From IMG/VR virus record IMGVR_UViG_3300044692_000064, positions 1-35,048 of that record: a DNA stretch of 35,048 nucleotides; one strand, given 5' to 3'. A program made the position numbers and the translations under genes. Positions 21,347 through 26,014 of the stretch are shown here, piece after piece. Position 1 is the first letter of the stretch, and every line of letters begins with the position of its first letter. This DNA comes from a virus. The notes beneath the pieces are model-generated. The model did not search any database and was not told the DNA's origin. It saw only the letters and a list, made by a program, of their open reading frames with translations.

Positions 21347-24300
21347 GTGGAACCTAGCACGACTAGTCCGTATGCGCAGGCCGCTCTGTACTTTCAGGCA
21401 GGGTGGCCCGGCGTCCTGCCGCTGCCCTACGGCAAGAAGTTCCCGCCACCCGAGGGCTACACCGGCGCGGACGGCAAGCTGCCCGACGTCGCCGAGCTGG
21501 TGGCCTGGATGCGGCAGGGCCCGGCCAACCTGGCGTTGCGGCTGCCGGCCGGCGTGGTCGGCATCGACGTGGACCACTACGGCGACAAGCCCGGCATGGC
21601 CACGCTCCAGGAGCTGATGGCCCAGCTCGGTCCGCTGCCGGCCACCTGGTCGTCCACCTCCCGAGGAGCCGACAGCCCGGCGCGGGTGTGGCTCTACCGG
21701 CTGCCGCAGGCGGACATCCGCCTGGTGGGCAAGCCCGGACCCGGCATCGACGTGCTGCAACACCATCACCGCTACCTGGTGGCCGCGCCGTCGGTGCACC
21801 CCGAAGGCGGTGTCTACGCCTGGTACCGGCCGGACTTCACGCCGGCGGGGGAGGCCGAGCTGCCGGCCGTCGCTGACCTGCCGTTCCTGCCGGACGCGTG
21901 GGTGGCGGCGCTGCGGGAGCAGCCGAAGGCAGCACCGGCCGCCGCGCCGGGACACCTCGCCTCCGCCTTCGACGACTTCGCCGCCAAGCCGCCGCACTCC
22001 ATCCGCGCCGCCCACGCCGCCATCGCCCGGGAGCTGGAGGCCGCCAGCGCGCCGGCGACGCTGGGCAGCGGCTACCGCACCGTCCTGCTGCGGGCCGCGC
22101 TGATCCTGGGCGGCTACGTCGGGGCCGGCGTGCTGGACGGCGCGGACGCCGCCCAACGGCTGTTCGACGCCGCCGGCACGGCGTGGGGCGGCACCGGCAA
22201 CGACGACGACCGGAAGTGGATCCACCAGGGCCTGACCGACGGCCAGCAGCGCCCGTTCAAGGTCTATGACGACCGCTTCGCTGGCCAGCCGGGCGTCCCC
22301 GCCGACCTGCCGCCGCGCGCGGTGGCGTCGCTGGAGCACGTCCGGCAGTTCGGCCGGCTGCCCGACGTGTTCGACCCGGCCGAGGACAACACGGACCAGG
22401 GCCTGGCCGAGGCGGTGCTGGCCGAGCTGCTGCCCAACCTGCGGATGGACTCCGAATCCGGCAGCTGGCTGGTGCGCGGCCCGGACCGCTGGTTCACCAT
22501 CGCCCGGGACGCCTCGGGCTGGGCGGTGTCGGAAGTCGCCCGGCGGATGCCCTACGGCCTGCGGCCGGTGCCCAAGGACCCGTCCGAGCGCACGGCCGAG
22601 CACTGGCAGGGCTGGAGACACCAGCGCTTCCACTCCAGCGCCGGCAGCGCCCCGGTGTCCCGCAAGATCCGGGAGCGCACGGCGACGGCAGGGCACTCCA
22701 GCCACGTGAAGCTGTCCGAGCTGGACGCCGACCCCACCGTGTTGTGGGCCGGCGGCCGGCCGTGGAACCTGCGCACCGGCGGCTTGGCCGAGCACGTGGA
22801 CCCGCTCACCCCGCACACCCACACCGCCCGGTTCGAGCCGGTGGAAGGGCCCACGCCGCTGTGGGACGCCTTCGTCGCCGCCGTCTGGCCGGATCCGGAG
22901 ATCAGGGAATGGGCGCTGTCGGTGCTGGCCGTCGGCCTCACCGGCTACAGCCCGAAGATCATGCCAGTGCTGTGGGGCGAGAAGGACCGGGGCAAGACGC
23001 AGGTGGTGGTGTTGCTGTGCCACCTGCTGGGCACCTACGGCGGCCCGGCCGACCAGAAGCTGATCGTGGCCCCCGAGGCGCACGGCTCGGTGGTCTACAG
23101 CCTGAAGGGCCTGCGGCTGGCCTACATCGACGAACCGGCCCCCACCCACCGGGACAAGGTGGAGCGGGTCAAGCTGCTCACCGGCGGCGGCCGGATGACT
23201 GGCAACCAGATGCGCAAGGACCCGGTGACCTGGGACAGCACCCACACCCTGGTCCTGATGCAGAACGACGCGCCCGAGCTGACCGACGACGCGCTGCGCA
23301 CCCGGGCCCGGGTGGTGCCCTGTGACGGCGACCTGGAGGCGGTGGCGCGCACCCGGGCGGCGCTGGGCGAGGTGGCCGGAGACAGCTTCAGCGGGGCGTG
23401 GGCCAAGGAAGCGCCCGGCGTGCTGGCCGCGATGATGCGCCGGGCCGCCGCCTGGCTGGCGGACCCGTCCATCCTGGACCAGTCCCACACCCCGGCTGGC
23501 GTGGCGGAGATGGTGGAGTCCATGGTCCGGGAGCAGGACCCGGTCCAGCTGTGGCTGTCCGAGCGCACCAGCCCGGACGAGACGGGGACGCTGTCCGGTG
23601 TCCTGCACAACGACTTCGCGGTGTGGTTCCGCAACCACCCGGTCTTCGGCCGGCGCACCGTCCTGTCCGCCGTGGACTTCGGCCGGCGGCTGACGAAGGC
23701 CGGCGTCGGCATCCGGCACGCCCGGGACGGCAAGTACCGGCTCCTGGTGCTCAACCAGCCCGGGGGCAACTGGTTCACCGGCCCGTCACCCGCTCCGGCC
23801 GAGTCCGGTCCCGTGACGGTTGTGACGGATGAGGTGACGGATGCCGAGGACGGTCCGTCACGGCCGGAACCGCAGGTCAGCACCGATAACGATCATGGTG
23901 TGACGGATGTGACGGATGGTCCCCAGTTCCCCAACAACATCTCATCTAAATCAATAAAGTCACAATATTCCGGTATAGGGGAGCCGTCACCGGATCCGTC
24001 ACCGGAAGGTGCGAAATCGGCATCTGACCAGGGAGAACCTCCCGTTTCGGATCCGTCACCGAATCCGTCACCGGCCCCGGCGCCGGTCCGTGCAAAGCGC
24101 ACGCGTCGCGCGCCCGGAGAGCCGACGCCGGCCCAGCTGCGCAAGGCCGAGGAGAAGGCCGCCAAGCTGGCCGAGCTGTCCGGAGAGCTGCTGGAGCTGC
24201 CGGTGGTGGTCCGGCGCACCACCCCGACCCCTCGGCACATCGAGCACGTGCACGTAGGCCCGCTGCTGATCGACGCCATGGAGAAGTCCCGGGGCCACCT

Positions 24301-26014
24301 CACCGTGGACGTGGAGACGTCCGGCTACCCGATCGGGCACCCGCTCTACGCCCTGCGGACCGTCCAGCTCGGCACCCGCGTGCTGACGGTGGACCTGGAC
24401 GCCGACTGCGCCGTCTGCTGCGCCATCGCCACGGCGGCGCTGAAGCGGGCTGAGACGCTGCACGCGCACAACGCCAACGCCGACATCCCCCCGCTGCACC
24501 ACGCCGGCATCGCCACCCACGCCGAGCTGTGGGCCAAGATGGAAGACACCGTGCTGCCGGCCAAGCTGGCGGACCCGAGCAGCAGCGGCGGGGACCCGGC
24601 GCTGAAGGCGGCCAGCGCCGCCGTGCTCGGCGACGCCGCGATGTCCCCGGCCGCCGAGGAGCGCAAGGACGCGCTGTTCGCCGCCGCCGGCTGGCTGAAG
24701 GACACCGACCCCACCACCCCGGCCGAGAAGTCCGGCTGGCTCCAGGTGGATAAGCGCTGCGCCACCATGCAGCGCTACGCCTGTGCCGACGTGCTGGACG
24801 GCGCGCTGCTGGCGCTGGAGCTGCCGAAGCCCGATCCGGCTGTGCACGCCCGGGAGCGCCACATCCAGCGGGTGGTGGCACCGGCGGCCACCTTCGGCTT
24901 CCCGCTGGACGCCGAGCAGGTGCTCATCCAGCACGACACCCGGGACGCGCTGGAGAAGCAGCTGAAGGAGCAGCTGCGGGACACGCTGCGCATCGACAAC
25001 CCCGGCAGCACGCAGCAGCTGGCCAAGGCGTTCACCGACCTGGGTGTCCAGCTGCCCTGGACGAAGCCGTCTAAGAAGTTCCCGCAAGGGCAGCCCAGCG
25101 TGGCCAAGGACGTCATGTCCACCCTGGCCGAGCGGTCCGGCCCGGCGCAGGCCGCCGCCCGGCTGGTGCTGGACTGGCGGCATGAGGACACCGCGCTGAA
25201 GCTGCTCCTGCGGCCCTGGCGCATCGCCGTGCTCCAGGGTGACGGGCGAGTCCGGCCGACGGTCTACACCCTTGGGGCCGACACGGGCCGGATGTCCTGC
25301 GTGCGGCCGAACATGCAGCAGATCAGCAAGAAGGGCGGCCTGCGGGAGTGCATCCTGGCCGACGACGGGCAGCTGATCGTCTCGGCCGACTTCGAAGGCG
25401 TGGAGCTGCGGGTGGCCGCCGCGCTGTCCGGTGACCCGGTGCTGCGCCAGGTGCTGGAGCAGGGTCTGGACATCCACCGCATGATTGCGGCGCAGGTCTT
25501 CGGCGAGGAGCTGGCCGACGAGAACCGCACGCTGGCCAAGCGCATCGTGTTCGGCCACATCTACGGCGGCGGCTACGAGACGCTGGCCAAGCAGTCCGGC
25601 GTCACCGAGGACGTGGTGGCCGACGCCGTCGGCGCTCTGCGCAAGTTCACTCCTCGGTTGGCCGAGTGGTCCGAGGAGATCAAGTCGGCCATCCGCGCCG
25701 GCAATCGGCAGTTCCGCACCTACTCCGGCCGGATCATCCACCTGGACCCGCGCCAGCCGCACAAGGGCCCGAACTACCTCATCCAGGGCACCGCTCGGGA
25801 ACTGCTCGGGGACACGCTGGTGGCGTGGGATGGCACCGAGCACGGTGGCGGCGTGCTGATGCCGGTGCATGACGAAGTGGTGGCCATGGTGGCGGCGGAG
25901 AAGGCCCAGGACGGTCTGGACACGCTGATGCGGGTGATGACCCACCGGCTCGGTGACATCGCCATCACGGCCTCGGCCGGTGGGCCGCCGGCGCGCTCCT
26001 GGCACAGCGGCTGA
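21347..26014 (+). CDS. Fused primase-polymerase / SF3-like helicase / 3'-5' exonuclease / family A DNA polymerase
   Basis: 1555 residues, GTG start 9 bases after GAGGAG. Residues ~1-200 are an AEP-type primase-polymerase: GIDVDHYG (Asp74, Asp76), STSRGADSPARVWLYR, GIDVLQHHHRYLVAAPSVHP (Asp135, His151). Residues ~330-790 are a D5-type SF3 helicase: Walker A GEKDRGKT (544-551), Walker B AYIDEP (Asp595, Glu596), then MQNDAPELTDDALRTRAR. A ~150-residue linker of Val-Thr-Asp and Pro-Ser-Pro repeats follows. The C-terminal part has all exonuclease motifs (Asp988/Glu990, Asp1046, Tyr1144/Asp1148) and polymerase motifs A (DFEGVELR, Asp1348), B (Lys1398, Phe1402) and C (HDE, 1508-1510). It could prime, unwind and copy DNA in one chain; these are usually separate phage genes. 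Confidence 0.92.
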   Translation: MEPSTTSPYAQAALYFQAGWPGVLPLPYGKKFPPPEGYTGADGKLPDVAELVAWMRQGPANLALRLPAGVVGIDVDHYGDKPGMATLQELMAQLGPLPATWSSTSRGADSPARVWLYRLPQADIRLVGKPGPGIDVLQHHHRYLVAAPSVHPEGGVYAWYRPDFTPAGEAELPAVADLPFLPDAWVAALREQPKAAPAAAPGHLASAFDDFAAKPPHSIRAAHAAIARELEAASAPATLGSGYRTVLLRAALILGGYVGAGVLDGADAAQRLFDAAGTAWGGTGNDDDRKWIHQGLTDGQQRPFKVYDDRFAGQPGVPADLPPRAVASLEHVRQFGRLPDVFDPAEDNTDQGLAEAVLAELLPNLRMDSESGSWLVRGPDRWFTIARDASGWAVSEVARRMPYGLRPVPKDPSERTAEHWQGWRHQRFHSSAGSAPVSRKIRERTATAGHSSHVKLSELDADPTVLWAGGRPWNLRTGGLAEHVDPLTPHTHTARFEPVEGPTPLWDAFVAAVWPDPEIREWALSVLAVGLTGYSPKIMPVLWGEKDRGKTQVVVLLCHLLGTYGGPADQKLIVAPEAHGSVVYSLKGLRLAYIDEPAPTHRDKVERVKLLTGGGRMTGNQMRKDPVTWDSTHTLVLMQNDAPELTDDALRTRARVVPCDGDLEAVARTRAALGEVAGDSFSGAWAKEAPGVLAAMMRRAAAWLADPSILDQSHTPAGVAEMVESMVREQDPVQLWLSERTSPDETGTLSGVLHNDFAVWFRNHPVFGRRTVLSAVDFGRRLTKAGVGIRHARDGKYRLLVLNQPGGNWFTGPSPAPAESGPVTVVTDEVTDAEDGPSRPEPQVSTDNDHGVTDVTDGPQFPNNISSKSIKSQYSGIGEPSPDPSPEGAKSASDQGEPPVSDPSPNPSPAPAPVRAKRTRRAPGEPTPAQLRKAEEKAAKLAELSGELLELPVVVRRTTPTPRHIEHVHVGPLLIDAMEKSRGHLTVDVETSGYPIGHPLYALRTVQLGTRVLTVDLDADCAVCCAIATAALKRAETLHAHNANADIPPLHHAGIATHAELWAKMEDTVLPAKLADPSSSGGDPALKAASAAVLGDAAMSPAAEERKDALFAAAGWLKDTDPTTPAEKSGWLQVDKRCATMQRYACADVLDGALLALELPKPDPAVHARERHIQRVVAPAATFGFPLDAEQVLIQHDTRDALEKQLKEQLRDTLRIDNPGSTQQLAKAFTDLGVQLPWTKPSKKFPQGQPSVAKDVMSTLAERSGPAQAAARLVLDWRHEDTALKLLLRPWRIAVLQGDGRVRPTVYTLGADTGRMSCVRPNMQQISKKGGLRECILADDGQLIVSADFEGVELRVAAALSGDPVLRQVLEQGLDIHRMIAAQVFGEELADENRTLAKRIVFGHIYGGGYETLAKQSGVTEDVVADAVGALRKFTPRLAEWSEEIKSAIRAGNRQFRTYSGRIIHLDPRQPHKGPNYLIQGTARELLGDTLVAWDGTEHGGGVLMPVHDEVVAMVAAEKAQDGLDTLMRVMTHRLGDIAITASAGGPPARSWHSG
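23783..24071. repeat. Iteron-like heptamer cluster around an AT-rich island (candidate origin)
   Basis: GTGACGG occurs at 23813, 23822, 23834, 23900 and 23909, and its complement CCGTCAC at 23783, 23855, 23984, 23996, 24053 and 24065. Most right-hand copies are paired at 12-base spacing and left-hand ones at 9 or 12. Between the two groups, 23936-23977 is about 70 percent A+T, in strong contrast to its surroundings. The repeats encode the VTD and PSP repeats of the protein linker between helicase and exonuclease. A replication origin with binding sites and an unwinding element is inferred; the lambda origin inside gene O is the established parallel. Confidence 0.5.

Follow-up and report, generated by a model that had tools for sequence, protein, structure and literature searches.

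For most phages, we know of no described replication origin. In phage lambda, iterons stand beside an AT-rich stretch inside the initiator gene O. PICI satellite origins carry, according to PMC6092414, a set of iterons on either side of an AT-rich region located 3′ of rep; for SaPI/PICI elements, that source and PMC7581432 (citing Ubeda 2007) place this arrangement immediately past the helicase-coding part of the gene for an SF3/D5-like initiator, which may be fused to a primase. Cch2 of SCCmec, a D5-family helicase, binds through its C-terminal domain direct repeats 3′ of its gene, a putative origin (PMC7581432). Phage P4 alpha is a primase-helicase-DNA-binding protein with short iterons (PMC4234260), and ORF904 of pRN1 from Sulfolobus combines Prim-Pol, SF3 helicase and winged-helix parts, the origin following immediately 3′ of its gene (PMC4234260).

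The window analysed here, 35,048 nucleotides of viral DNA classed as a linear contig in IMG/VR, carries a candidate origin that appears closest to the SaPI/PICI type, with two iteron sets around an AT-rich region just past the helicase-coding part of a gene for an SF3/D5-like protein. It differs from that type in belonging to a tailed phage, in its GTGACGG iterons with an extra <>>>< module (> for GTGACGG, < for CCGTCAC), and in lying within an ORF, because a DNA polymerase I is fused downstream. While PICI satellites depend for their head and packaging genes on a helper phage, the window encodes its own terminase large subunit, portal and major head protein; the element is a phage, not a PICI. 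The lambda parallel drawn in an earlier, sequence-only reading of this DNA holds for position, the candidate origin being within the initiator coding sequence, but lambda O is a positional analogue only: the initiator fold differs, the window protein is a Prim-Pol/SF3/PolA protein and not a homologue of lambda O, and the window has iterons on both sides of its AT-rich centre, where lambda has them on one side. The other systems differ as well, Cch2 in having three 5-nt iterons and a primase and polymerase that are separate proteins (PMC7581432), P4 alpha in its Toprim-type primase (PMC4234260) where the window has Prim-Pol, and pRN1 in having a 100-bp stem-loop without iterons, outside any ORF (PMC4234260).

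A fused primase, helicase and polymerase

The candidate origin lies in a single gene with the following parts.

21347–26014, + strand: fused replication protein gene, 1555 aa, Prim-Pol, SF3 helicase, linker and DNA polymerase I (ORF, translation, Pfam)
21383–21847, + strand: Prim-Pol primase domain, aa 13–167 (Pfam PF09250)
22364–23791, + strand: SF3 (D5-type) helicase region, aa 340–815 (alignment, AF2 model, Foldseek, profile search)
23567–23752, + strand: winged-helix-like C-terminal helicase domain, aa 741–802, candidate iteron binder (AF2 secondary structure, alignment)
24959–25948, + strand: DNA polymerase A domain, aa 1205–1534 (Pfam PF00476)

Pfam matched Prim-Pol (7.5e-21) and DNA_pol_A (3.5e-46), with D5_N (7.5e-4) falling under its cutoff. 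Motifs, profiles and predicted fold identify the middle part as an SF3 helicase. First, a Walker A GxxxxGK and a sensor Asn stand in SF3 arrangement, with G205, G210, K211 and N301 invariant among 15 relatives (alignment A2). Second, the AF2 model of the helicase part (pLDDT 86) has a winged-helix-like domain at its end, and its top Foldseek matches are ASFV PrimPol C962R, mpox E5 and vaccinia D5. Lastly, a profile search matched the helicase part to C962R (3e-7). The winged-helix-like region aligns by column with helicases whose ORFs stop there, and Pox_D5 matches lie near the C-terminus in several relatives. The first iteron starts 30 bp past this region, the end point of the aligned helicases from other elements, while the window ORF runs on beyond the helicase end into polymerase A.

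Architecture of the iteron array

The array comprises these features.

23783–23789, − strand: iteron copy (exact heptamer count)
23813–23840, + strand: three forward iterons (23813, 23822, 23834) of the auxiliary module (heptamer count)
23855–23861, − strand: inverted iteron closing the auxiliary module (heptamer count)
23872–23886, + strand: GCAGGTCAGCACCGA element between the auxiliary and core modules (comparison by eye)
23900–23915, + strand: core iteron pair, 9-bp pitch (heptamer count, iteron-agnostic scan)
23916–23983, no strand: 68-bp centre, candidate unwinding element, holding the AT island (AT profile)
23984–24002, − strand: core inverted iteron pair, 12-bp pitch (heptamer count, iteron-agnostic scan)
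24053–24071, − strand: outer inverted iteron pair (heptamer count)

The eleven GTGACGG or CCGTCAC copies that the sequence-only reading had counted in 289 bp are exact, at 23783–24071, and comprise five GTGACGG and six CCGTCAC in the order <>>><>> [68-bp centre] <<<<. Its description of direct repeats on the left and mainly inverted ones on the right was correct for the right side (four inverted) and simplified for the left, where five forward copies are accompanied by two inverted ones. The island of about 42 bp that it had put at some 70% AT is found at 23936–23977 with 71% AT, the highest of all 42-mers of the window (runner-up 57%). The heptamers are not equally frequent elsewhere: 29 occur across the 35-kb window against a dinucleotide-shuffle mean of 13.0, and 11 of the 29 fall within the 289 bp. 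An iteron-agnostic scan (any 7-mer X-X, 35–120 bp, inverted X-X) returned a single convergent architecture in the window, at 23900–24002, and none in shuffles.

DNA-level constraint in the linker

P, S, T and D are frequent residues in linkers. On a protein-level account, a flexible linker would have grown by amplification of VTD and PSP units, with the DNA repeats arising as a side effect; the sequence-only reading had named such repeat expansion as the rival cause, having seen the codons nearly all in one phase, and indeed all 11 window copies sit in reading phase 0. Tandem copying, however, does not yield inverted copies of one heptamer, and the codon choice is extreme. When the peptide was fixed, drawing codons from the remainder of the gene produced a mean of 1.33 heptamers and at most 5, so that none of 5000 draws reached the observed 11; shuffles with the linker's own codon usage gave 3.57 (maximum 9). 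TCA is used nine times in the linker but at none of the gene's 64 other Ser codons, and GAT encodes 8 of the linker's 10 Asp residues compared with 4 of 98 outside it, these otherwise avoided codons being present because the heptamers force them.

Whereas the sequence-only reading had counted relatives with the protein repeats kept in different codons and no AT island as evidence against an origin, we found the opposite, with DNA repeats kept and protein changed. In L003, whose primase-helicase part is 76% identical to that of the window, eight heptamers are ordered >><>>[AT]<<< and two are in another phase. A Micromonospora prophage (L136) and a viral contig (L206), which are the same element and share 51% identity with the window in the polymerase part, carry 11 heptamers ordered <<<>>><>>[centre]<<, in which the auxiliary order <>>>< of the window recurs. 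Six of these, all four core copies among them, have a different phase; the Micromonospora homologue reads the core copies as RDG/CDG and PVT, the window as VTD and PSP. As the heptamers are kept while their reading phase changes, it is the DNA and not the peptide that is conserved. With L003 and L206 keeping the repeats and their order while changing frame, repeat expansion is already largely refuted, and we regard it as very unlikely.

The linker of L004, which is closely related to the window (77% in the primase-helicase part), holds no exact GTGACGG and instead a drifted TGACGGA-like set, with at most one mismatch, laid out as in the window; that of L005 holds no heptamer, and L005's own candidate repeats are weak. 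The absence of perfect heptamers in L004 and of any in L005 counts against an active origin and would suit a decayed remnant, an origin that worked before the polymerase fusion in a phage that now starts replication elsewhere. So would the GC skew, which lends the origin no consistent support and does not peak at the array: its cumulative minimum in the window lies at 25160, 1.1 kb away, although the skew is weak and relatives have no matching extremum. Against decay, the window and L206 each retain 11 perfect copies despite wide protein divergence, which points to continuing selection, and the window has no second such array, so that a relic seems scarcely probable.

L005 (2881–7551) resembles the window closely in the polymerase part but shares only 42% identity with it in the primase-helicase half, the switch falling at the linker; this jump in identity suggests a module exchange at the candidate origin. 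Among 395 genomes from the class of the Micromonospora host, the exact architecture was found only in that Micromonospora genome, and a genome search with the primase-helicase alignment confirmed no relatives. An element resembling GCAGGTCAG(C/T)ACCGA lies between auxiliary and core iterons in the window (23872–23886) and in L206 (near 9950), where the fused genes read it as PQVST. By eye, GCAGGTCAGCACCGA-like sequence is also present in L004 and L206 and, looser and non-coding, in the array of phage Yuna (L226, near 3007).

Arrays adjoining helicase genes in many phyla

We searched by DNA architecture without protein information, using a core pattern of two iterons, a 40–77-bp centre and two inverted iterons. 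It had 52 matches among genome sequences and 73 among viral contigs, the same architecture with the reversed heptamer giving no matches in viral contigs against the 73. At 100 of 126 loci examined, a gene of at least 250 aa has its 3′ end at most 200 bp from the array; clustered at 60% identity, these neighbours form 28 clusters, and as one cluster holds 65 loci, the cluster count is the safer figure. An SF3-type helicase gene (called by D5_N, DUF5906, VapE or Pox_D5, with primase modules of many kinds; L086 and L022 are among the loci cited) precedes the array in 89 of the 100 loci, or 18 of the 28 clusters. Three clusters (three loci) are AAA_25 helicases, and seven are unrelated or of no assigned kind, four of them from one Clostridia MAG. 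A control with the reversed tandem pattern gave one helicase homologue among 33 loci. Hosts include Alphaproteobacteria, Actinobacteria, Acidobacteriota, Clostridia and Prevotellaceae. The array is non-coding 3′ of many of the helicase genes, a further argument against repeat expansion.

The centres of 28 representatives are 40–77 bp long (median 64), a range bounded by the search pattern, and 26 of the 28 are AT-richer than their own locus. Alternating purine-pyrimidine runs of at least 10 occur in 14 of 28 centres (background 3.4%). These runs reach up to 33 bp (L134, L190, L173, L138, L136) and are Z-DNA-prone; the PICI-origin passages of the source make no mention of such runs.

Iterons in plasmid systems can serve autoregulation. 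By analogy, the repeats might be an operator at which the replication protein, or some other factor, regulates transcription and not the start of replication, and a position within the operon would permit a roadblock. An operator is nevertheless at odds with an array that lies 3′ of the helicase coding region and not ahead of it, that is symmetrical about an AT-rich or alternating purine-pyrimidine centre and that tracks helicase type; in addition, the precedent region of PICI was assayed for plasmid maintenance (PMC6092414). We therefore consider an operator improbable, if somewhat less so than expansion or decay.

Some matches stand apart. In gut Firmicutes MAGs (L144, L174, L179), the GTGACGG layout adjoins AAA_25 (RepA-like) helicase genes, another helicase family. 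In the Clostridia MAG RGIG3365 (L139, L149, L153, L169), convergent GTGACGG arrays lie beside non-replication genes and are possibly a terminator or repeat family with the same motif. We rejected the heptamers of L007, which are upstream of a primase gene, on the same strand and judged to be chance, as well as same-strand-only GTGACGG runs within ORFs (e.g. L032, L021), which are plain tandem repeats.

A model for the candidate origin and its presumed capture in the gene

The proposal that the linker DNA serves as origin and is read as linker is strongly supported by the comparisons, in that the DNA is conserved, the array starts where related helicase ORFs stop and, across many phyla, SF3 helicase genes have matching architecture on their 3′ side. 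As a whole, the array is best explained as a candidate phage origin of the SF3 (D5/Rep-like) initiator-helicase type that is also translated as a flexible linker, a reading we consider highly probable. By analogy with described systems, the winged-helix C-terminal part of the helicase would bind the GTGACGG iterons on both flanks of the AT-rich centre; helicase rings would assemble around the centre and then melt it, the Prim-Pol domain would prime, and the fused polymerase A would extend.

An origin of this type would usually lie just 3′ of the helicase gene. In many related phages, a polymerase I gene comes right after, or almost right after, the primase-helicase gene. Given this common gene order, an in-frame fusion enclosing an intergenic origin would be a simple history: in the window's lineage the downstream polymerase gene was presumably fused in frame, and the enclosed origin came to be translated as linker. 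What appears new is that a candidate origin is at the same time coding sequence of a three-enzyme fusion, and that the origin type seems wider than described. The array is also a clean case of candidate origin DNA kept through reading-frame changes. With less assurance, we lean towards a widespread and hitherto undescribed class of phage origin, with convergent iterons at ~9-bp pitch, often GTGACGG, read by the SF3-helicase winged helix across many bacterial phyla; in actinophages, a replisome consisting of one polypeptide with primase, helicase and polymerase would have come to enclose it, making one DNA stretch both the origin and the linker coding sequence of its own initiator.

Candidate origins in isolate phages

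The resulting sequence rule (two short iterons, a soft centre of ~40–80 bp or somewhat more and two inverted iterons, just 3′ of an SF3 helicase gene) points to candidate origins in phages and prophages from many phyla, with Yuna, AcaML1 and BPP-1 among them. No array was found at the primase-gene 3′ end of Rowa, Honk, Dismas, Sebastisaurus, Lilbooboo and TforTroy, which have separate primase and polymerase genes, or of the Zierdtviridae Tracker, Patio and Stickynote. Of 22 isolate helicases examined, 15 are without such an array, and the association of array and helicase is therefore not universal. Seven have the convergent layout 3′ of their D5-type helicase genes, mostly with other iterons; the scan gave none in shuffles and none in upstream control stretches.

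AcaML1: CTGACGG
Mycobacteriophage Yuna (L226): GGCACAGAT
GMA4: GGCACCC
MalagasyRose: GTGACGG/ATGACGG
BPP-1: TTTGCCTCG
AmM-1: GGGAGGCTA
Eponine: GGGACAT

Yuna, like the window, has an auxiliary module and a GCAGGT element ahead of the core. A stem-loop 3′ of the BPP-1 replication gene was proposed earlier (PMC4234260); in this phage (L240), the convergent iterons lie 466–570 bp past the primase stop.
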